A stretch of 22,895 nt of DNA from a virus: IMG/VR virus record IMGVR_UViG_3300042090_001896, positions 1 through 22,895 of that record; one strand, 5' to 3'. Below, one piece after another: positions 2,580-13,159 of this stretch. The position numbers and the translations under genes are program-made. Below the pieces are notes generated by a model that worked only from the letters and a program-made list of their open reading frames with translations, was not told the DNA's origin and made no database searches. Each line of letters begins with the position of its first letter. Within the stretch, counting starts at the first letter, position 1.

Positions 2580-3794
2580 ATGCCGTCAGTTCTAAACTCC
2601 ACCAGCCAGTTCAACCAGCAGCTCAATCTGCCTCTGGCTCAGCCAACGGCAAATACTGTCGGCATATCTTCATTCCTGGCGCCCATCACCGTCCAGCAGA
2701 CCACGAACTACGGCCTTCCAGATCCATCTCAGCTTTCGGCAGAAGCGATTCAGAAGCTAGCGACTACCGGCAACGCTGGATCGTTCAATCAGGTAACTTC
2801 TAGTCTTTCCTGCGTCGCGCAAAATGGGCAAATCAACGTTGTTGATTCATCTACGAGCGCTGTAGTCGCGTCAAATCTTGCTACGGTTCCACAGGGAGTC
2901 CCAAATCCTTCTGTACTCCCGGGTGATCTAGCCGACCCAACGTCCGGCCTCAAGGTGACGATCTCGCAAGAGCCGCAAATTCTCGGCTCTCCCGCGGCCA
3001 ACACCGCTGGAAACTCGGTTACCTTTAAGGTGATGCCGACAATTCAAGAAAGTCGGGCCGCAAACTACAAGTCATTCACCCCGCTCCAGCACCCGGGTGA
3101 AATCCTCAAGTACGAAGGATCCACCTCGCGCACGTGGGCAATTGAAGCCAAGCTTATCTCACGTAACACGGCTGAGGCGGATGATAACCTCCGCATGATC
3201 AACTTGATTCGTTCGTGGGTGATGCCGTTCTATGGAGCTGGAACCGCTGGAGATACGGGCGACGCGAGCGTGCAGCAGTACCTCGGCGCACCTCCACCAA
3301 TCCTTACGCTTACTGCATACGGAAGTCAAATGATTGGCCCAGTGAAGTGCGTTCTTGAGAATCACAGCTGGAGCTGGCCAAATGACGTTGACTACATTCA
3401 GACATCGTCAAACGTTCCCTTCCCGGTCATTATGAACGTCTCGCTAACAATGAAGGAAAGCTGGAGCCCGGCAGAGTACAGCGGCTTTGACATCATCGCG
3501 TACCGCAACGGTTCCCTTCCTCAAGCATTTACGAGCGTACCAAGCACCAACATTGGTGCTAAGAACAAGCAGCAACAGACGGTATCAGGAACGAACACCC
3601 CAATTCCTAACTCGTCAACCGTCGATACGTCGCAGGCAAACACCGCGACGCCGCAGCAGACGACAATGGTTAAGGCACCAGGCTACACAACAGCAAATGA
3701 GCAGGACTGGCTTGCTGCAAATCCGGGGCTTGGTCATTCAAACTACCTGGCATACGTCAGGGGTGATGTAGCCGGATCTATCATTCCACAATGA
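2580..3794 (+). CDS. Probable baseplate tail-tube initiator/cap protein (gp48/gp54-like)
   Basis: Probable baseplate protein on which the tail tube starts to assemble. The central part (about 145-310) has the look of tube-initiator proteins: TFKVMP, then IQESRAANYKSF, a PGEILKYEG turn, a RTWAIEAKLISR strand and WPNDVDYI before a long beta strand. The first 130 or so residues are Ser/Thr/Gln-rich, and the last 80 are a Thr/Gln/Asn-rich linker ending in an ANEQDWLAANPGLG segment. AAGGA at 2570-2574 sits five bases before the ATG. The gene begins one base after the nucleotidyltransferase stop and overlaps the gp53-like gene by ATGA. The assignment rests on these features and on gene order (next to gp53), and I cannot separate gp48 from gp54. 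Confidence 0.6.
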   Translation: MPSVLNSTSQFNQQLNLPLAQPTANTVGISSFLAPITVQQTTNYGLPDPSQLSAEAIQKLATTGNAGSFNQVTSSLSCVAQNGQINVVDSSTSAVVASNLATVPQGVPNPSVLPGDLADPTSGLKVTISQEPQILGSPAANTAGNSVTFKVMPTIQESRAANYKSFTPLQHPGEILKYEGSTSRTWAIEAKLISRNTAEADDNLRMINLIRSWVMPFYGAGTAGDTGDASVQQYLGAPPPILTLTAYGSQMIGPVKCVLENHSWSWPNDVDYIQTSSNVPFPVIMNVSLTMKESWSPAEYSGFDIIAYRNGSLPQAFTSVPSTNIGAKNKQQQTVSGTNTPIPNSSTVDTSQANTATPQQTTMVKAPGYTTANEQDWLAANPGLGHSNYLAYVRGDVAGSIIPQ

Positions 3795-4222
3795 CAATCT
3801 CCTCAACAACCCAATACACGACGCTTCCATCTACTGGTCCAACGTCGGATAACAACACCAACAGCCTGTACAACAAGTACTCAAGGCTGGTGGGTGGTGG
3901 CGTCACGGAAGTTTCCGACGGAATGCTTGGGTGGTGGGAGCGCAGCATCTACGCCAAGGATCCATCTGACCAAGTCTACGTGGTCGAAAACTACTGTGCC
4001 CAACGCATCGACAAGATCTCGGTGGTCTTCTACGGTGAAGCTCGCTGGGGTTGGCTTATTGCCCAGTACAACAACATCCTTGACCCATTTACTGAACTAA
4101 CTCCTGGACGCTATCTTTTGATCCCCACGAAGGCACGGCTGCCGCTTCTTATCGCCACTCAGCAGGGCGGTGTAGATTCAACAGCACAACCCGTGGCGAC
4201 CATCTCACCTATCATAACATAA
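3791..4222 (+). CDS. 53: Baseplate wedge protein, T4 gp53-like
   Basis: Baseplate wedge component that clamps wedges around the hub. The family pattern is clear from residue 48 on: WWER, YAKDPSDQVYVVE, a RIDKISVVFYG strand, WGWLIAQYNNILDP, then ELTPGRYLLIP. The last stretch resembles the LysM-like fold known for gp53. The N-terminal 45 residues are Ser/Thr/Asn-rich and probably flexible. At 143 residues it is a little shorter than T4 gp53 (about 196). It starts within the stop of the preceding gene (ATGA overlap) without a clear Shine-Dalgarno, so coupled translation is likely. Confidence 0.82.
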   Translation: MTISSTTQYTTLPSTGPTSDNNTNSLYNKYSRLVGGGVTEVSDGMLGWWERSIYAKDPSDQVYVVENYCAQRIDKISVVFYGEARWGWLIAQYNNILDPFTELTPGRYLLIPTKARLPLLIATQQGGVDSTAQPVATISPIIT

Positions 4223-4228
4223 GCTCCC

Positions 4229-6634
4229 ATGGCTGGACAGACAAGCATTGACCAGAGCCAGAACTACGAGAACCCCCTCGACAAGTTTCGCTCCTACTCA
4301 TACCAATATATCTTGACCGTCGCTTCTGATACAGAAGCGATGCGCGGGCTGATGGGTGCGAACCAGAGCTCTAAGACTGGCGCGTCTCAGGCACCGTTAC
4401 TTCAAGCCGTTCAAAAGGCAAAGCTTGGTGATGAGCTTAAGGTGGGCTCTGGAAGCGCGTGGCTTCTTATCGACACGCGTCGCTACTCGCAGTACTCAAT
4501 CACTGATCTAGAGATGCACCACGTTTATGGAACGGGTCCGGTAAATGCCCCAAATGTTCCATACTCCGCGCACACGATGAAGATCATCGATACGACGGGT
4601 CTAACATTCTTCAATTTTCTTCTTGACACGCTGCGCAACAAGGTTCAAAGCTCGTCAAAGTCCGCGTTCTTCATGCTCGCCATCCTATTCACGGGTCACC
4701 GCGATGATGGCACAACTGAAACGATCTCGACCTGCTTCATGATCGTGCAGTTCAAGTCAATCAACTTCCGCTTCGATTCCTCTGGTTCCACATTTGACAT
4801 CGAGCTCTTTGAATTTGAAGCAATTGAGCCAGTAATTCCGATGGGCGTAGCAACATCACAGATCAATTACTCAGCGGAGCACCTTCGCTCACTGGGTAAT
4901 CTCAAGTCGATCAGCACGCAAGGACGCAGCAACACCGTAGGTGACATGGTCCAAGCGCTCGAAGATTCCCTCAATCAGCAGTCGTTGAACTTCTACAAGA
5001 AGTTTACCAATGAAGCGTTGAAGAGCCAGACCAATCCTAACAACACTGCAACCAATCCTAACAGCGCGGTAAAGTTTGGGAAGCTGGTGCAGTTCATGAT
5101 CAACATTCCAACAGAGTGGATGGGCTACAAGCTCACAACCGCCACTCGCTCTAAGAATCTAGAGCAGGTGTTTGTGTCAACTACGCCTCCTGGAAAGGCG
5201 CTGACTCCAGCCGAGAGAGCCGCACTTGCTGAACAAACGCAGCGAGCTGTCCTTGCCAAGACAGCCGCGACAAAGAAGGCCGCTCAGGCAAACAAGGCGG
5301 TGATAGATGCCTACATCGCGAACACTAAGGGCATGAGCCCAGCTGCAATCGCCCAAGAACAAAAGAAGCTGAATGCCCAGCTCGCGCAAACGTCGGTGAC
5401 AGATCTCACAGACCAGTACCAAGAGCTTACCTTCTCGTCAATAACGACAATTGACGAAGCGATTAACAGCATTCTTCGCTGCTCAAAGGAAATTCTGGAC
5501 CTTGCAAGCTCAGACAAGCTTCGCGCTGGCACAGCAATCATCCCAAAGGTTCTCACCGTCATCACATCTGACGCGACTACGTTCGTTCTTCACATTGACG
5601 TTTATCCATTCCAGCCGCCGCCAAACAGCACCTTTCAAGATGGCAAGCTTACGGCGGGTGCCGCAACTCCGGTAAAGATCGACAAAAATAACCAGGCTCA
5701 GCAGGTAGCAGTCAACGTGATGAACTACAACTACCTGTTCTCCGGGCGCAATACGCACATCAAGAATCTTGAAATCAAGTACAGCCCAATCGCGATCGCG
5801 GCGCTTGACACTTCACTGAATATCGGAGGTGCCCGCTTCCGCGACAACGCCCAGCAGGCCGGTCAAGTCGCGTCAAAGCAGCAGGAGGTTGCAGCTGGAA
5901 AGGCAAAGACAAACATCGTAATGACGGAAATCCGCCCCAACGATCCAATCTTTTTTCCTATCCGGTCGGTGGCGCAGAAGACAAACAATGTCGCGCAGTA
6001 CACGGAGGAGCTCGAAACGCTGCAGGCGGTTGACACCCTCGGCTCGCTTCAAGAGTTCACAACGACGATGTCAGAGCTGCACTTTCTATCCTCGCTCAGC
6101 GCTGACATGACCATCCGCGGTAACCCAAACCTTATTCGAAAGTTTGCTGATCGTTCTGTTCGCAATGGTATTCCACCGCAGCTCCCAATCATCAGCGCGC
6201 AGAACCTGAATAACTTAGTCCAAAATCCTACCTCGACGCTGGTGTTTGAAAATTCAACCGTGCAGGCGGGAGTGAGCTCGTCAAAGGCATTCTACCGCTC
6301 ACAGTTTTATCAGCCACGTCTGGACGCCGCGCAGAAACCAGCTACGCAGGGGCAAGACGCGCTGCTCAATGGTGTTGACGTGGCCATCGCGCCGCTCTTT
6401 GTTAAGATCAACATCTTCGCGCCTAATGTAGACTTCGCTGGAACGTATGACTCAAGCAGCGGCGATCCACTTTTCACGCAGGCGTTTTTCTACAATGGAC
6501 TTTACCAAGTGATGCGCATTCAAACGTCATTTACTAATGGTGAGTTCGAGCAGGTGCTGCAGCTCAAGGCTACACCGTGGGTCAGCACCATCAACGATAC
6601 CAATCCTAGCGGCTTCCCAGCGAAGTTCATCTAA
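4229..6634 (+). CDS. Baseplate hub-region structural protein (gp27 position)
   Basis: Large structural protein of 801 residues lying directly before the gp5-like spike gene, the usual place of the hub protein gp27. The N-terminal part (about 15-200) is a beta-rich domain beginning ENPLDKFRSYSYQYILTV and ending with FRFDSSGSTFDIELFEFEA. Residues about 325-395 are Ala/Lys/Gln-rich and probably form a long helix or coiled coil, an insert between beta domains. The C-terminus (about 735-801) has FYNGLYQVMRIQTSFTNGEF followed by QVLQLKA, a pattern common at the end of hub proteins, where a strand pair supports tube contacts. It is about twice the length of T4 gp27 (391). ATG 4229 follows six bases after the gp53 stop with no evident Shine-Dalgarno, and the stop overlaps the next ATG (TAATG). 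The hub role is inferred from position and the C-terminal pattern. Confidence 0.55.
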   Translation: MAGQTSIDQSQNYENPLDKFRSYSYQYILTVASDTEAMRGLMGANQSSKTGASQAPLLQAVQKAKLGDELKVGSGSAWLLIDTRRYSQYSITDLEMHHVYGTGPVNAPNVPYSAHTMKIIDTTGLTFFNFLLDTLRNKVQSSSKSAFFMLAILFTGHRDDGTTETISTCFMIVQFKSINFRFDSSGSTFDIELFEFEAIEPVIPMGVATSQINYSAEHLRSLGNLKSISTQGRSNTVGDMVQALEDSLNQQSLNFYKKFTNEALKSQTNPNNTATNPNSAVKFGKLVQFMINIPTEWMGYKLTTATRSKNLEQVFVSTTPPGKALTPAERAALAEQTQRAVLAKTAATKKAAQANKAVIDAYIANTKGMSPAAIAQEQKKLNAQLAQTSVTDLTDQYQELTFSSITTIDEAINSILRCSKEILDLASSDKLRAGTAIIPKVLTVITSDATTFVLHIDVYPFQPPPNSTFQDGKLTAGAATPVKIDKNNQAQQVAVNVMNYNYLFSGRNTHIKNLEIKYSPIAIAALDTSLNIGGARFRDNAQQAGQVASKQQEVAAGKAKTNIVMTEIRPNDPIFFPIRSVAQKTNNVAQYTEELETLQAVDTLGSLQEFTTTMSELHFLSSLSADMTIRGNPNLIRKFADRSVRNGIPPQLPIISAQNLNNLVQNPTSTLVFENSTVQAGVSSSKAFYRSQFYQPRLDAAQKPATQGQDALLNGVDVAIAPLFVKINIFAPNVDFAGTYDSSSGDPLFTQAFFYNGLYQVMRIQTSFTNGEFEQVLQLKATPWVSTINDTNPSGFPAKFI
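5030..5062 (+). repeat. 12-bp direct repeat within the hub-region gene
   Basis: ACCAATCCTAAC occurs at 5030-5041 and again at 5051-5062, 21 bases apart and therefore in frame. It encodes two copies of a Thr-Asn-Pro-Asn turn in a low-complexity linker near residues 268-279. This is probably a small tandem duplication. Confidence 0.7.
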
Positions 6635-8025
6635 TGCGCTCACTCATTGAAGATTTCCCACAAGGAGTACCCTTCATCATGGAGGGTCAAGTTGTTTCCG
6701 TTGATGACCCGGATCAGATGGGAAGAGTCAAGGCGTGGATTCCATCTCTTGACGGGGATAACTACGACGTTGAGCAGCTTCCATGGACATCGTACGCTCC
6801 ACTGTTTGGTGGTTTTACCGTAGCGTATCCCGCTGGTGGTAACCCGGCGGCCGCGACAAACATCTCCGAGACATCCTACGGTATGTGGGCTATCCCAAAG
6901 TTGGGATCTACAGTGTTCATCTTCTGTTCCCATGGAGATCCTGCCGCTCGATTCTACTTTGCATCCTCACCGCGGCTTCACCGCAACCGGTCCCTTCCTG
7001 CCGGGCGTAACTTTGACAACAGCGGAAATCCTGGACCATTCGGTGATGCTCAAGATACTAGCGGTAACTTCAACCCTATTCAGCCTGCCTACAACAACCT
7101 ACGAACGCAGTTTAACGGCAACGTTACGGCGTCCGAGGCGGTTACCCGAGGCGCTTATGAGCGGCAGGTGGCGCAGGCGAACTTCAACAAGGATGGCAGC
7201 GAGGGCTACTCCACGAACCCAGCCGACGACTCATACCTTGATCCGCAAACCTACTGCATCGTGACACCTGGACGCCATGCCTTCATCATTCAAGATGATC
7301 CTCGCATGGCGCGCATGCGCCTGAAGACAGCCTCTGGGCATCAGATCATCATGGACGATGCAAATGAGCGCATCTACATTTCGACCGCGCTGGGTAACTC
7401 GTGGCTTGAAATGGACCAAGATGGTCACGTCAACGTGTTTTCTACTGACTCTATCAGCGTGAGAACTGGTAAGGACTTCAACGTCTACGCTGATGGCAAC
7501 ATCAACATGGAAGCCGGTAAGGGCGTGAACATCAAGGCGAACGATGGAGACATTCGGGCTGAGACATCTGAGTCCCTACAGATCCAGGCCAACAGCAACA
7601 TCGTCATGGCGGCGTGCGGTTACTTTGACGTGGGCTCTGATGGTAAGCTTCACATCACAAGCGGGGACACGCTGAACATTCACGCGAAGGGTGACATGAA
7701 CACGCAGACCGACGGTGAGCTCAACGTTAGCGTTGGCGGAAGCATCTTTGAAACGGCCGGCAGTGATCACAACATCAACGCTGGTGGCAGCGTAGCCCAG
7801 ACATCCGCAGGCAACTTTGACGTGAACGTTGGTGGTGCCTACACCCTCAGCGCTGGCAATGGCGTTAACATCGACGCGGGCGCAGCAGCGATAGCGCCAA
7901 CCGCGAATGAGGCATCAGATGCTTCATGCCCAGATCTTCCAGCCGATCCAAGCGTCGTCCCTGGATTCGAGCCATGGACCCGCCCAGCAACTTCAGGAAC
8001 CCGTGGACCTAACTGGAAGCCGTGA
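6634..8025 (+). CDS. 5: Baseplate central spike, gp5-like (OB fold + beta-helix, no lysozyme domain)
   Basis: Trimeric membrane-piercing spike at the centre of the baseplate. Residues about 15-115 are the N-terminal OB fold (MEGQVVSVDDPDQMGRVKAWIP, LPWTSYAP, WAIPKLGSTVFIFCSHGDP). Residues about 205-240 (VTPGRHAFIIQDDPRMARMRL, SGHQIIMDD) lead into a triple-stranded beta-helix made of short repeating strands to about residue 418 (INMEAG, VNIKAN, LNIHAKG, VNVGG and similar). The tail ends with GFEPWTRP near 444-451. T4 gp5 has a lysozyme domain between the OB fold and the helix; here the linker (about 115-205) is Asn/Gly/Pro-rich and shows no lysozyme motif. Its ATG shares one base with the preceding stop, and its TGA shares one base with the next ATG. 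Confidence 0.85.
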   Translation: MRSLIEDFPQGVPFIMEGQVVSVDDPDQMGRVKAWIPSLDGDNYDVEQLPWTSYAPLFGGFTVAYPAGGNPAAATNISETSYGMWAIPKLGSTVFIFCSHGDPAARFYFASSPRLHRNRSLPAGRNFDNSGNPGPFGDAQDTSGNFNPIQPAYNNLRTQFNGNVTASEAVTRGAYERQVAQANFNKDGSEGYSTNPADDSYLDPQTYCIVTPGRHAFIIQDDPRMARMRLKTASGHQIIMDDANERIYISTALGNSWLEMDQDGHVNVFSTDSISVRTGKDFNVYADGNINMEAGKGVNIKANDGDIRAETSESLQIQANSNIVMAACGYFDVGSDGKLHITSGDTLNIHAKGDMNTQTDGELNVSVGGSIFETAGSDHNINAGGSVAQTSAGNFDVNVGGAYTLSAGNGVNIDAGAAAIAPTANEASDASCPDLPADPSVVPGFEPWTRPATSGTRGPNWKP

Positions 8026-8972
8026 TGCACATCTGCGCGACCACACCCATCCCGGACTTCAACTCGCTGTACAACGCCGCTCTTCCAGCGATGACGGCAC
8101 CGCTTCCACTTGCGCCGATAACGATCCCTCCGTTGCCGTCGCTTCCAAGTCCGATCTATCCTGGCTTTACGCAGCCCAACATCGAGATCCTGCAGATAGT
8201 TCTCGAGCTTCAGAACTACCAGTTCCTCACCACTTTCAGCGCGTTCATTACCCCGCTGGTAAACTTTCTTGGGCTAAACCTCAGCGCGATCCTTCCAAAG
8301 ATACCCGGAACAAACCTTTCACTGCTTGATCTACTCGCGCTAACTCCCAATGTTGTGGTGCCACAGTTCACGGCCGCCTGGAAGCTGGACCCGACCATCT
8401 TCATGGCGATCCCTAACTCGATCTACTACGCGATGAACAGCCCCGGGCTTACCGACTTGAAAATTGCAAGGGCTGCAGTTCAAAGCTACTTCACGCTGCT
8501 GATCGATTTTGTAGTTAACCTGATTAACCAGGCGATCGGAAAGATCAACCAGAGCCTGCCCGCTCTTCCAACCATCCCAACCATCCCGACTATGGTTGAC
8601 CTGCAGCTGCTCGCAGTCCCATTCATTCCAGGTCTTCCTCCTTCAACTCCAGGCATCCCAGGTCTACCACCGGTTCCATCGGTTCCTGGCCTGCCGGTGG
8701 TTTCAGTTGGCACGATCCTCGCCTACCTTAACAAGTTCTCACTGAACAACCTGCTCTCGCTCATCGCTATCCCTGGTTTCCCAGCGATTCCTTCTCTTCC
8801 GACACCGCTGGTTCCTAACTTCACAAGCCCGGAATACAACTTCTACGTTGGTCTCGAGGTAGCCTTCAATGAGTTAGTTGCGTACCCGATGTCGATCATC
8901 ATGAACTTCATCAACAGCGTTCTCTCTCACTTCATCGGCTTCTCGTTTCCCACGATATGCTTGGATTTCTAA
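8025..8972 (+). CDS. Proline-repeat hydrophobic structural protein of unknown function
   Basis: I do not recognise a family for this 315-residue protein. It alternates three proline-rich blocks with hydrophobic, helix-like stretches. The blocks are residues about 25-47 (PLPLAPITIPPLPSLPSP), 178-224 (LPALPTIPTIPTM, then IPGLPP occurring twice) and 249-264 (IPGFPAIPSLPTPLVP). The hydrophobic stretches are about 52-105, 120-175, 228-250 and 275-310. They are long enough to span a membrane in places but carry many polar residues, so packing inside a virion is as likely as membrane insertion. I chose the ATG at 8025, which overlaps the spike stop (TGATG), over the in-frame GTG at 8022. Its place between the spike and gp25 genes suggests a hub, tube-lumen or spike-associated role, which is inference only. 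Confidence 0.65.
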   Translation: MHICATTPIPDFNSLYNAALPAMTAPLPLAPITIPPLPSLPSPIYPGFTQPNIEILQIVLELQNYQFLTTFSAFITPLVNFLGLNLSAILPKIPGTNLSLLDLLALTPNVVVPQFTAAWKLDPTIFMAIPNSIYYAMNSPGLTDLKIARAAVQSYFTLLIDFVVNLINQAIGKINQSLPALPTIPTIPTMVDLQLLAVPFIPGLPPSTPGIPGLPPVPSVPGLPVVSVGTILAYLNKFSLNNLLSLIAIPGFPAIPSLPTPLVPNFTSPEYNFYVGLEVAFNELVAYPMSIIMNFINSVLSHFIGFSFPTICLDF

Positions 8973-8981: not shown

Positions 8982-9353
8982 ATGGCGACCGCGATCTATA
9001 AAGGCTTCTCGACTGACAACTGGCTGAACCGCCGTACGTTCGGTCTTTCGAATGTCGCCCTGGTGGAACGTGATCTGCTTACCCAGATTTGGACGAACAA
9101 GGGCGATCGCGTGATGATGCCTGACTTTGGCACGCGCATCCCAATGCTGGCGTTTGAACCGAACGATGACAACACAAGGGCGATCATCGATGAAGATCTT
9201 CGCGCGGTCTTCAACTACGATCCTCGGGTTCAGCTACTGTCGCTGAACATCATGTCGCTGCCTTCGAACAACGCGATTATCGCGATCGCTGAACTCCTCT
9301 ACATCGAGTTCAACGTAACGCAAGTTCTCAACATAGAGATTCCGACGCAATGA
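8982..9353 (+). CDS. 25: Baseplate wedge protein, gp25-like (GPW/gp25 family)
   Basis: Conserved wedge protein with the small lysozyme-like but non-enzymatic fold of the gp25 family; it joins the wedge to the sheath. The 123 residues match the family length. Typical elements are the N-terminal YKGFSTDN, VALVERDLLTQIWTNKGDRVMMPDFGTRI in the first half, with the G(D/E)R and PDFG turns, and LAFEPNDDNTRAIIDEDLRAVFNYDPRVQL in the second. No Shine-Dalgarno is visible before the ATG at 8982. The gene overlaps gp6 by ATGA, matching the near-universal pairing of gp25 with gp6. Confidence 0.9.
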   Translation: MATAIYKGFSTDNWLNRRTFGLSNVALVERDLLTQIWTNKGDRVMMPDFGTRIPMLAFEPNDDNTRAIIDEDLRAVFNYDPRVQLLSLNIMSLPSNNAIIAIAELLYIEFNVTQVLNIEIPTQ

Positions 9354-12300
9354 CGATCACCAACACGTACGCCGCAGAAGCCTGGAACAAGGTCTACTCC
9401 GCCTTCCAGCAGATCAACTTTACCGCGTATGACTACGATACGGTAAAGGAGTCGCTGATCCAGTATCTGCAGATCTATCACGCGGAACACTTCAACGACT
9501 TTATCGAGTCGGATGAGCTGGTGGCGTTCCTCGAGATCTTCGCCTACGCGGCTGAGCTGATCTCGTATCGCGTTGACCAAATGTCGCACGAGAACTTCAT
9601 CACGACGGCGCAGCGCAAGGCGTCCATCCTTCGTCTTGCTCGTCTTATCTCTTATTCGGCAGCTCGCAACATCCCAGCGCGTGGTCTCGTAAAGATCCAG
9701 ACGGTGCGCACCGCGCAGACCGTCTATGACTCGCTTGGTAACAACCTTGCGAACACCACCATTACGTGGAACGATCCAAACAACACCAACTGGAAGGAAC
9801 AGTTCTTCCTTGTGATGAACCTCTCGCTGACTACTCCATTTGGTCAGCCATCAAAGTCCTTCCAGATCGCGGACGTGTTGATGCAGCTTTACACATTCAA
9901 CAATGATCCTACCACCCTTCCTACTGGCGTCTTCCCATTTTCAGCATCTACATCCGGGCAGCAGCTTCAGATGGAACTTGTGCCGATTGACATCGACGCG
10001 AATGGTCCAAAGGAGCGCGCGCCCGACCTTAACGCGCAGTTCAACGTCGTGTACGCTACCGACGGCCGCGGTGATGGCTCAGACTACACGGGCTTCTTGA
10101 TGTTCGTTAAGCAGGGAACCCTCTACCTCACGAACTACAACATCGCGCAGCCAACCGCAAACCGTCGCATCGAGCTTAGCACGATCAACATCAATGATAC
10201 CGACGTGTGGCTCTACCGTGTTGACAGCACAAACACGATCACCGAAAATTGGGTCGCGGTTGATACTCTTGCAGACCAGAACATCGCCTTCTACACGAGT
10301 CAGACCACCCGCAAGCTGTATGAAGTTGAGACACTCGAGAACGATTCTATCGCGCTCATCTTTGGCGATGGCAACTTTAGCGATGCACCAGTTGGTAACT
10401 TTCAGCTCTGGACCCGCGTCTCGCTTAACCAGGATCTCAACATTCCACAGAGCGCGATCACGAATCAGCAGATCACGTTTAACTACCTCTCGCAGACGCA
10501 GATCACCTACGCGTTCAACTGCACGTTCTCGCTAACCTCTGCGATCCAGAATAACTCTGCGTCTGAAACTATCGAGCATGTTCGTCAGTCCGCACCTTCG
10601 GTAAACATCGCGCAGAATCGAATGGTCAATGGGCAAGACTACAACACCTTCCCGCTGAAGGACCAAACGATCCTCCGCCTTAACGCGATCAACCGCACTT
10701 TCGCTGGGCAGCCGAAGTACATCGACTGGAATGATGCGTCAGGCGCGTATCAAAACATCAAGCTCTTTGGTGATGACCTTACGATGTCGCTCACACCTGG
10801 GATCGATCTCGTTACAACGACTGACAGCTCACAAACGATCGTCGACACTTACATCGAGCCACTGCTTTCATCAAGCGCTATCCTCAACGTTCTCACCCAC
10901 ATTTCAGCGGTGGCTGATGGCACAACGAATGGCATCGTAAGTTACCCGCGCACCAAGTTCATTCAAGACAACCAGTCGAAGTACTACGACATCAATGGCA
11001 ACTTCGTAAACCCATACGGCGTTCAGCTTGACTCGCTTGACCTTCAGACGCCAGATGGTTCGCTCAAGGAAAAGACTGTTATTCAGGGAGCCCTTGACCA
11101 GCACTGGTACGGAGATCCTATCTCGCTCGTGACGATCAATGGTTCTCAGGCCGGCGTTGTAGCTGACCCAGTTCTAGATCCAACAACTGACGACAATCTT
11201 TACCTCTCGACGCTCCCGCGTACCATCGACGGGATCAACCTTTACCCACCAGGAGACAAGGGTTCAGGGCTGCAAACCATTCAGCGTCAGCAGTACTTTG
11301 GTCTTCGCTACAATAGGCTGCTCAAGTGCTTTGGCGCGGCCACTATGTACCTTTCAAATCCAGCCGACACATCACCAAATAACGTAGGTAATGGTCCGAC
11401 TCCTGTTCCAGCAAGCGCTGCGCTTCCTACAAGTCCAGCGCAAGCGGGAGCGGTGGAAACATTTACCATAGAGATGACGTCGGATACCGTCACCTTCACT
11501 GTGACCAGCAACCTTCGTGGTTCATTGCCAAACTACAGCCTCTCGATTGGTGGTCGATACTCATCTCAAAACGGTTTGGGCACTAACAGCCCAATCGACT
11601 TCGTAATTACTGGCGTAACTACTACCTTCTCACAAGGTGATGCGTACGTCATCGATGCGGTAAGCACTGGCGTTGTGTGGAACTCTAGTCTCCGGCTTTT
11701 CGGAACCAACAACTATCCAAACTGCAACCTTAACGGTTGGTGGGAACTTATCCCCGCGGACGTGATTGCCGCTACGGTTGGCGGAGCTGGACTGTTCTCT
11801 GGTGGCCCGAGCGACGGTCCTAACCTCGCGCAAACGCTGATCTTTAACCAAGCCACAAAGCCTAACTCGTGGGTGTTTCTCGTCTCACGCACCGATGATT
11901 CGTCCGGCAACGTGCTCAACTGGAGCATCTACAACCGTGACATGGAGATCATTGTTGATAGCCCGACGACGAACTTTTGGTACAACAATGGCGCTCAGCT
12001 TACAGACCCGGAGACGCTGCTGCCGGTGTACGACGTCATCCGTATTCTTCGTTCAAACCTTGACGCGGCTGGCTACCCACTTCGTGCAAACGCGATCTAT
12101 GATGTAGCAGGTCTTTCATACGACCAAAATGGTGTGGTACAGACCCACCAGCTCGAGGTACTCCCAGCTGGCATCCTGAACTACAACTCGACATCAAACA
12201 CTACCGCTCCTGCAAACATGCTGCAATTTGAGGCTTTCACGTTTGGGTCGTATCAGTTTTCCCTGCTCGATTTTACGGTCGCAAGCAATCCAACTTACAC

Positions 12301-13159
12301 TACGTACTCACCACTTACGTATGGCACGAGCAACAACTACACGTGGACTCCTACTCCCGCCCACCCAGGCGACGATGCGGGTTATCTCACCGTAACAGGT
12401 GAGGGAGCCGGAACCTATCACTTTGCGACGGGTAACTTCCTGTCTACCGACATGACGGGAACTCTTGCGGCTGTTCGCGTTCCTTACGTTCCAGCGCCAG
12501 CGGTTCCAACTACAACGCCAACCGTCTACGAGGCTAATCCAACGCTGGGTCTGGACTTTATGTGGCAGCACTTCACCCCAGATTCCAACCTCATCGATCC
12601 GTCTACGTCGAACATCATAGACATGTACGTCATCACGCAGGGCTACTACACGAGCGTTCAGAACTACGTCAATGGTCTTACGACCGTTGTTCCATCTCCA
12701 GACACGCCACTTTCGCTGCGCACCTCCTACGGCTACCTCCTAAACTACGCAACGCTGTCTGACACGGTTGTTCTGCACCCAGGTAAGTTTAAGTTCCTGT
12801 TTGGTTCGCTGGCCGATCAAACGCTGCAGGCCACGTTCATGGTGGTTCCAGCCGCGACGGCAACCTTCACGAACGAGCGGATCCAGCAAGAGGTTCTGAA
12901 CACGATCAACACCTACTTTGACATCTCGAACTGGGATTTCGGTGATACGTTCTACGCCACTGAGCTGATTGGTCTGATTCACCAAGCCCTTCCAACCCAG
13001 ATCGCAACTGTGGTTATCGTACCGACTTACTCGGTAAATTCCTTTGGTTCGCTCTTTACAATCGATTCAGGGATTGACGAGGTGCTTCAGTCAGTAGCAA
13101 CGCTTGACAACATTCAGGTGGTTTCGGCGCTTACGCCGTCTCTGATCCGTCAATCGTAA
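9350..13159 (+). CDS. 6: Baseplate wedge protein, gp6-like (baseplate J family), enlarged
   Basis: Wedge protein that forms the iris-like ring around the baseplate hub. The N-terminal part (about 25-110) has the gp6 pattern: LIQYLQIYHAEHFNDFIESDELVAFLEIFAYAAELISYRVDQMSHENF and TAQRKASILRLARLISY. The middle has IALIFGDGNFSDAPVGNF near 341-358 and IAQNRMVNGQDYNTFPL near 420-436, both gp6/J signatures. The C-terminus (about 1180-1269) has IQQEVLNTINTYFDISNWDFGD, FYATELIGLIHQALP and a final beta segment, like the gp6 dimerisation end. T4 gp6 has about 660 residues; the extra length lies mainly between about 690 and 1130, including a small beta-rich module at 702-771 that recurs in the next two genes. 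Confidence 0.87.
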   Translation: MTITNTYAAEAWNKVYSAFQQINFTAYDYDTVKESLIQYLQIYHAEHFNDFIESDELVAFLEIFAYAAELISYRVDQMSHENFITTAQRKASILRLARLISYSAARNIPARGLVKIQTVRTAQTVYDSLGNNLANTTITWNDPNNTNWKEQFFLVMNLSLTTPFGQPSKSFQIADVLMQLYTFNNDPTTLPTGVFPFSASTSGQQLQMELVPIDIDANGPKERAPDLNAQFNVVYATDGRGDGSDYTGFLMFVKQGTLYLTNYNIAQPTANRRIELSTININDTDVWLYRVDSTNTITENWVAVDTLADQNIAFYTSQTTRKLYEVETLENDSIALIFGDGNFSDAPVGNFQLWTRVSLNQDLNIPQSAITNQQITFNYLSQTQITYAFNCTFSLTSAIQNNSASETIEHVRQSAPSVNIAQNRMVNGQDYNTFPLKDQTILRLNAINRTFAGQPKYIDWNDASGAYQNIKLFGDDLTMSLTPGIDLVTTTDSSQTIVDTYIEPLLSSSAILNVLTHISAVADGTTNGIVSYPRTKFIQDNQSKYYDINGNFVNPYGVQLDSLDLQTPDGSLKEKTVIQGALDQHWYGDPISLVTINGSQAGVVADPVLDPTTDDNLYLSTLPRTIDGINLYPPGDKGSGLQTIQRQQYFGLRYNRLLKCFGAATMYLSNPADTSPNNVGNGPTPVPASAALPTSPAQAGAVETFTIEMTSDTVTFTVTSNLRGSLPNYSLSIGGRYSSQNGLGTNSPIDFVITGVTTTFSQGDAYVIDAVSTGVVWNSSLRLFGTNNYPNCNLNGWWELIPADVIAATVGGAGLFSGGPSDGPNLAQTLIFNQATKPNSWVFLVSRTDDSSGNVLNWSIYNRDMEIIVDSPTTNFWYNNGAQLTDPETLLPVYDVIRILRSNLDAAGYPLRANAIYDVAGLSYDQNGVVQTHQLEVLPAGILNYNSTSNTTAPANMLQFEAFTFGSYQFSLLDFTVASNPTYTTYSPLTYGTSNNYTWTPTPAHPGDDAGYLTVTGEGAGTYHFATGNFLSTDMTGTLAAVRVPYVPAPAVPTTTPTVYEANPTLGLDFMWQHFTPDSNLIDPSTSNIIDMYVITQGYYTSVQNYVNGLTTVVPSPDTPLSLRTSYGYLLNYATLSDTVVLHPGKFKFLFGSLADQTLQATFMVVPAATATFTNERIQQEVLNTINTYFDISNWDFGDTFYATELIGLIHQALPTQIATVVIVPTYSVNSFGSLFTIDSGIDEVLQSVATLDNIQVVSALTPSLIRQS
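11453..11662 (+). repeat. Shared beta module, copy in gp6-like protein
   Basis: Residues about 702-771 of the gp6-like protein: VETFTIEMTS, TVTFTVTSN with a nearby Gly, then PIDFVITG and FSQGDAYVIDAV. The same order of motifs appears in the two following genes. Confidence 0.5.

Follow-up and report, generated by a model that had tools for sequence, protein, structure and literature searches.

What is a proline-rich, hydrophobic protein doing between the spike and wedge genes of a phage baseplate? The question is raised by a gene, here called X, in a 22.9-kb IMG/VR virus record (hereafter the window, meaning the whole stretch of DNA that was analysed), in which the baseplate genes are ordered as in a large myovirus (Table 1). 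We give about even weight to the proposal that X is a putative virion protein of the cell-puncturing device, working with the central spike in the genomic, and probably also the physical, slot that the PAAR protein gp5.4 occupies in T4.

The X gene and its neighbourhood

The gene order in the window is gp53-like, an 801-aa hub-position protein, gp5-like spike, X, gp25, gp6 and a very large protein. PHROG profiles identified the gp5-like spike on the 5′ side of X and gp25 and gp6 on the 3′ side, in agreement with the first-pass annotation, which had placed X between spike and wedge genes. The same annotation described X as locked in by overlap. This holds at the 5′ end, where TGATG combines the spike stop and the X start, but not at the 3′ end, where a 9-nt gap precedes the gp25-like gene. 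The promoter search of X yielded no sigma-70 site, and the only terminator was at chance level and on the opposite strand; there is thus nothing to indicate that X is transcribed as a separate unit. By its gp6 neighbour, the window is placed near XacN1, GAP32, RaK2 and 121Q. The order of the hub-position and spike genes was kept in most of the loci L004-L082. We also observed that all spikes of the window's clade, with or without X, end with PxxVPxHEPWxRPxSxxxRxxNWK after the β-helix.

Table 1. Genes of the spike region and features of X; positions refer to the window.
Feature	Position	Strand	Description	Basis
gp53-like	3791..4222	+	LysM-type baseplate wedge protein	phrog_7145
Hub-position protein	4229..6634	+	801-aa virion structural protein, gp27/hub position	phrog_11190
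Central spike, gp5-like	6634..8025	+	β-helix and conserved C-tail PWxRP...NWK	phrog_13211, phrog_430, others
X	8025..8972	+	315-aa proline-rich hydrophobic protein, proposed spike companion; ATG 8025, TAA 8972	
Pro block 1, PLPLAPITIPPLPSLPSPIYP	8100..8162	+	aa 26-46 of X	sequence
Repeat 1	8130..8306	+	aa 36-94: Pro-rich strand, long helix, LPKIP	repeat HMM i-E 1.7e-17
Repeat 2	8397..8579	+	aa 125-185	repeat HMM i-E 9e-18 (segment included in model); cross-repeat test
Pro block 2, LPALPTIPTIPT	8556..8591	+	aa 178-189 of X	sequence
Pro block 3, PFIPGLPPSTPGIPGLPPVPSVPGLP	8619..8696	+	aa 199-224 of X	alignment
Pro block 4, PGFPAIPSLPTPLVP	8772..8816	+	aa 250-264 of X	sequence
Repeat 3	8781..8963	+	aa 253-313, C-terminal F[PT]T[IL]C motif conserved	repeat HMM i-E 1.6e-19
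gp25-like	8982..9353	+	baseplate wedge / sheath initiator	phrog_261, phrog_43
gp6-like	9350..13159	+	baseplate wedge	phrog_10646, E 8e-176, first 717 aa

The X protein contains 14.3% Pro, 15% Leu, 10% Ile and 5.7% charged residues, with a GRAVY of +0.72. The fetched loci contain 610 non-overlapping genes with a length of at least 150 aa, and among these the X-family copies were alone in combining at least 10% Pro with a GRAVY above 0.4, which excludes chance for this composition. An in-frame GTG at 8022 lies just 5′ of the ATG; the latter is favoured as the start because of the N-terminal pattern of the X family, M..[IL]C...LP.F. The reading frame is confirmed by homologues in unrelated phages. 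The three Pro blocks reported earlier (IPGLPP, PTIPTIPT and IPSLPTPLVP) were all found in X, although the total is four, as the N-terminal PLPLAPITIPPLPSLPSPIYP had been missed. Aligned with the homologues, Pro block 3 is mostly an insertion specific to the X of the window. X had no match in the Pfam, NCBIfam or PHROG profiles.

Internal repeats and predicted structure

X consists of three tandem repeats of ~62 aa, each combining a long helix with a Pro-rich linker, and all five members of the family have three. In each unit, a Pro-rich strand (roughly P-x-P-[IL]-x-P-x-[FI]-S-x-P) leads into a helix of 30-38 residues, and [FL]P-x-I closes the repeat. Repeats 1 and 3 aligned with a pair score of 65, compared to 28 ± 5 for shuffles, and in cross-searches with repeat profiles most of the real repeats outscored all of about 1000 shuffles. 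These are the independent tests; the joint repeat model, which recovered exactly three full copies per family member (i-E 2.5e-13 or better), was trained on the same segments. The AlphaFold model of X, calculated from three sequences, placed three long helices at the repeat positions. As its pLDDT was 40 and the fold was unusable, we treat it as support for secondary structure only. The model of phrog_5296 (see below; ten sequences, pLDDT 51) had no usable fold either. Solved structures included relatives of neither X nor phrog_5296, as the listed matches were weak and to unrelated chains.

The X family and its coupling to the spike gene

In tblastn searches of phage records, Xanthomonas phages PhiXhv-12/15/16 and Erwinia phage Ep032 matched X with 28% identity and E down to 2e-10. 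Of the 80 IMG/VR loci gathered via gp6, one (L063, from a 345-kb jumbo phage record) carries an X homologue. A profile scan revealed another, 38% identical to X (phmmer E 5.7e-52), in L084, a tail module that we call Mu-like from a reading of gene order and sizes, without a profile search; this protein led to X homologues in two Alishewanella phages. Scanning viral contigs with the X, PhiXhv, Alishewanella and L084 proteins returned, beyond the seeds, only L063/L085, L084 and L086, and no relatives were found in the bacterial genomes scanned or in plasmids.

In all five lineages, X follows the spike gene at a distance of -4 to +3 nt. The two genes overlap by 4 nt in L063 and are spaced by 3 nt in L084 and by 1 nt in both the Alishewanella phage L090 and PhiXhv-15 (L001). 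A gp25-sized gene directly follows X in the window, L084 and L090, whereas in L063 there is one gene in between and in PhiXhv-15 X is followed by unassigned genes. The spike-gp25 slot of L063 also holds an unrelated gene (6938-7846) for a 302-aa protein.

In L086, another myovirus-type tail module, positions 5920-6288 directly 5′ of gp25 encode a 122-aa protein of near-pure LPxLPxLP (MASLCTLPPFPPSLKLPALPGLPGLP...), which begins with an MxxLCxLPxF pattern like that of X. It may be a reduced relative of X or a case of convergence, and the match is possibly compositional.

The spike-gp25 slot in the window's clade

The nearest relatives of the window (L004, L006, L008, L010, L013, L021, L045 and L070) have no X, and their spike and gp25 genes are separated by 43-59 nt. 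They keep the same spike C-tail (PxxVPGxEPWxRP...NWK), meaning that X is optional in this clade and that no tip exchange was seen. In the tip-exchange comparison for the clade, the distal spike was variable among the X-lacking relatives too. In these jumbo phages, X may have joined the spike as an extra partner and not as a substitute for its cap.

The slot is an accessory one in this clade, and in eight loci (L032, L034, L037, L047, L053, L071, L074 and L083) it is occupied by other genes. Five of them encode soluble proteins of 116-159 aa (L032 1307-1762, L034 1199-1609, L037 3378-3728, L047 3787-4197 and L071 8111-8590). These belong to another branch of the jumbo clade, have the N-terminal QELExxMxLxE in common and start within the spike gene; the two that were tested had no PHROG match. 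The slot of L074 (2864-3583) encodes a 239-aa protein with tandem repeats of KGPFKLGEPAIAKNAxxAYxYAxxVL, that of L053 (7872-8540) a 222-aa protein that looks kinase-like by eye, and that of L083 (3857-5224) a 455-aa protein. In Xanthomonas phage XacN1 (L087 7710-8549), the spike-position gene 5′ of gp25 is annotated as an M23-family peptidase.

A likely relative in the T4 family

The protein family phrog_5296 (RB43ORF205w, KP15_158, SP18_gp165, KM16 gp201) comprises proteins of ~690 aa encoded between gp5 and gp6, with relatives in about 215 T4-family phage records, including RB43, KP15 and SP18. We found no functional study of it in the literature; RB43ORF205w appears solely in a table of novel ORFs (PMC1524935). 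In several Klebsiella/Raoultella phages (records H32, H44, H53, H54 and H67), it was deposited as "tail length tape measure", which is probably a misannotation, since the gene lies between gp5 and gp6.

The X of PhiXhv-15 matched gp201 of Salmonella phage KM16 (690 aa) with a tblastn E of 3e-3. When 4,233 ORFs from 121 loci were searched with a five-member X profile, only phrog_5296 members matched beyond X itself (whole-protein E from 4.5e-5 to 0.12). Each match consisted of two segments corresponding to X repeats 1 and 3, in the same order, and reversed and block-shuffled decoys gave no matches. With hhalign, X and phrog_5296 aligned at E 0.024 through the C-terminal repeat only. The single-repeat model of X was not significant on phrog_5296, and the X of the window alone did not match phrog_5296 among the PHROG profiles. 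Both genes are located directly behind the gp5/spike gene and upstream of the wedge genes; those of phrog_5296 start -1 to +4 nt after gp5. We consider it likely, though not certain, that X is homologous to phrog_5296.

The two proteins share the place behind the spike gene, a C-terminal end containing Pro and Cys, and long helices. However, phrog_5296 is twice as long, with a ~230-aa N-terminal domain that is missing from X, which aligns only with the helical C-terminal two thirds; phrog_5296 also has only 5% Pro and, with a GRAVY of -0.06, is not hydrophobic overall. The first-pass annotation considered the composition of X unlike any T4 baseplate protein. The statement is true of T4, but the T4 family as a whole includes phages with a probable relative between gp5 and gp6, namely those counted above.

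Exchange of phrog_5296 with the PAAR cassette and the gp5 tip

The T4 locus reads gp5, 5.1, segC, 5.3, 5.4 (PAAR), gp6, whereas in PD112, a Tequatrovirus (the genus of T4), it reads gp5, phrog_5296, gp6. VR26 and SP18, both of the genus Gaprivervirus, differ in the same way. The flanking DNA is mostly more than 90% identical in T4/PD112 and mostly 80-98% identical in VR26/SP18, and in both pairs the replacement is clean, starting inside gp5 and ending at gp6. With gaps counted as differences, the gp5 identity between T4 and PD112 falls from 94% to 25% after T4 residue 502, and that between VR26 and SP18 from 92% to 25% after VR26 residue 507. The gp5 body and tip are 65% and 90% identical between PD112 and SP18, and 99% and 41% between T4 and PD112. 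Across 12 phages, gp5 tips clustered by companion type (phrog_5296 or PAAR) and not by body. The last ~70 residues of gp5 switch along with the cassette, between conserved flanks. The exchanged part falls inside the T4 gp5 fragment 484-575, which binds gp5.4 at 3:1 (PMC7600766), and gp5.4 is the membrane-attacking tip of the T4 spike (PMC4576200). As judged from these sequences, phrog_5296 is an allelic alternative to the gp5.1-gp5.4 (PAAR) cassette in the T4 family. The co-switch of the gp5 tip could also be explained by recombination merely dragging the adjacent tip along.

PF05488 did not exceed the cut-off in any of nine phrog_5296 genomes (KM16, SP18, RB43, KP15, S13, Pm5461, POP12, SdyM006 and PD112), the RB43 match being sub-threshold at 13.7 bits against a cut-off of 27. 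T4, VR26 and MP1 have PAAR and no phrog_5296. PAAR likewise stayed below the cut-off in three X records (PhiXhv-15, Alishewanella phage Slickus01 and the L063 contig); in the ten jumbo relatives without X, it was over the cut-off in five, weak in two and absent in three (G003, XacN1 and G009). Because PF05488 alone was used and IMG/VR records may be incomplete, the case for mutual exclusion of PAAR and phrog_5296 is good within the T4-family sample but no more than suggestive outside it. X and its homologues showed no PAAR repeat domain in Pfam searches.

A functional tie of X to the spike is supported by these results. In five phage lineages with little else in common, the gene comes immediately after that for the spike, and the likely relative of X in the T4 family is exchanged together with the spike tip; therefore, X belongs functionally with the spike. 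The X proteins form a genuine family, as yet without a name, that is linked to the spike and represents an occupant of the PAAR slot, not a member of the PAAR family.

Alternative explanations

Membrane activity of X is plausible from its sequence and compatible with its low-charge helices. It is unlikely, nevertheless, that X is a membrane-active effector for which the spike is only the site of delivery, with helices that enter the inner membrane and open or line a route for DNA. X does have three long helices with few charges, the 19-residue Kyte-Doolittle maxima are 1.6 in X, 2.2 in the L063 homologue and 2.2 in KM16 phrog_5296, and T6SS spike-borne effectors provide a precedent with transmembrane domains beside PAAR (PMC12881460). 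However, N, Q, S, T and E recur at regular intervals in most X helices, which are only borderline transmembrane and could pack equally well as a bundle, and there is no chaperone gene beside X. We regard as quite unlikely the view, also raised by the first-pass annotation, that X belongs to the tail lumen, where it would sit on the trimeric hub/spike and fill the tube mouth as a plug or as a bundle resembling a tape-measure protein. A triple-helix partner at the spike is sterically reasonable, as in Anabaena phage A-1(L) the N-termini of the spike are intertwined with three C-terminal helices of the tape-measure protein (PMC10966104). KM16 phrog_5296 matches tape-measure profiles weakly (best 6e-9), although such matches of long helical proteins are often compositional, and the "tail length tape measure" records point the same way. 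What speaks against this view is that in the T4 family the distal tip, not the hub side, is exchanged with the phrog_5296 gene, and that the X profile matches no tape-measure protein among the fetched ORFs; the X homologues reach only chance level against tape-measure PHROGs (E 0.036 and 0.6), and the X of the window has no match. The lumen readings thus found no specific support. Judging from protein sizes, X probably does not scale in length with the tail tube: it has 315 aa in the window, which is from a large phage, and its L084 homologue has 288 aa. The Mu-like module of L084 has its own tape-measure-like gene upstream of the X homologue.

If X were a chaperone that folds or assembles the spike tip and is absent from the mature virion, the same tight coupling to the spike gene and the same tip co-exchange would be expected, and T6SS spikes use such accessory proteins (PMC13373197). 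The low charge, high Pro content and hydrophobicity of X would be unusual for a soluble chaperone, and the alternative cassette of T4 encodes a structural tip, gp5.4, which makes this role improbable. Least probable is that X arrived by chance in a permissive slot as an unrelated accessory gene, with no role at the spike. The slot does hold different genes in the eight loci of the window's clade, but X homologues occupy it with the same coupling in unrelated phages, including the Mu-like module. We rejected this reading because of the recurrence, since a chance insertion would not be repeated in the same place.

Proposed role of X and its implications

The reading that we prefer, X as a spike companion in the PAAR slot, starts from the observed gene order, tight coupling to the spike gene, triple repeat and sporadic distribution of X, and from the observed replacement of PAAR together with spike-tip exchange in its likely T4-family relatives. 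X is probably a second kind of needle-tip protein. From these observations we infer its physical binding, stoichiometry, tip position and membrane step. X would assemble onto the spike and travel along with it. The triple repeat suggests that one X chain is arranged around the threefold spike, much as a trimer is capped by a single PAAR monomer; the three ~62-aa units of a single chain would form a pseudo-threefold assembly matching the spike. In this position, X may cap or sheathe the distal spike end, a task for which PAAR proteins use another fold. Its low-charge helices might cover the tip of the spike, or else unfold into the membrane of the host once puncture has occurred. Liposomes were not bound by the gp5-gp5.4 tip complex of T4 (PMC7600766), which leaves room for a different membrane solution.

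If X and phrog_5296 are alternative tips, the pairs PD112 and T4, and SP18 and VR26, represent a natural experiment. Between gp5 and gp6, the tip and its companion are essentially all that distinguishes these close relatives, which allows a direct comparison of PAAR and non-PAAR tips in laboratory E. coli. In addition, a protein of more than 200 sequenced phages that is now hypothetical or misleadingly called "tape measure" would receive a name and a role. The wider question is how contractile tails pass the inner membrane once the spike has pierced the outer one. A broader idea, which we consider rather doubtful, is that a PAAR-independent class of tips extends across T4-like, jumbo, Mu-like and other myophages, built as a single-chain pseudo-trimer with membrane-engaging helices, exchanged with the distal spike and carrying the phage through the inner membrane.

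Comparison with known systems

Tape-measure proteins resemble X in their long helices, and phrog_5296 matches their profiles weakly; X differs from them in being too short and interrupted by Pro. The T6SS prePAAR/TMD effectors carried on VgrG share with X, by analogy only, hydrophobic helices delivered by a spike, whereas X has no PAAR, no toxin domain and no Eag-type chaperone gene. In position, X parallels the T4 gp5.4/PAAR tips (PF05488, phrog_281), which are likewise encoded between gp5 and gp6/gp25; a gene next to that for the spike is characteristic of PAAR tips and is also seen for X. A single chain on the trimeric spike has been demonstrated for gp5.4 and would be expected for X. The two differ in build, as T4 gp5.4 has 97 aa with a PAAR fold, and X has 315 aa of Pro-rich helical repeats.
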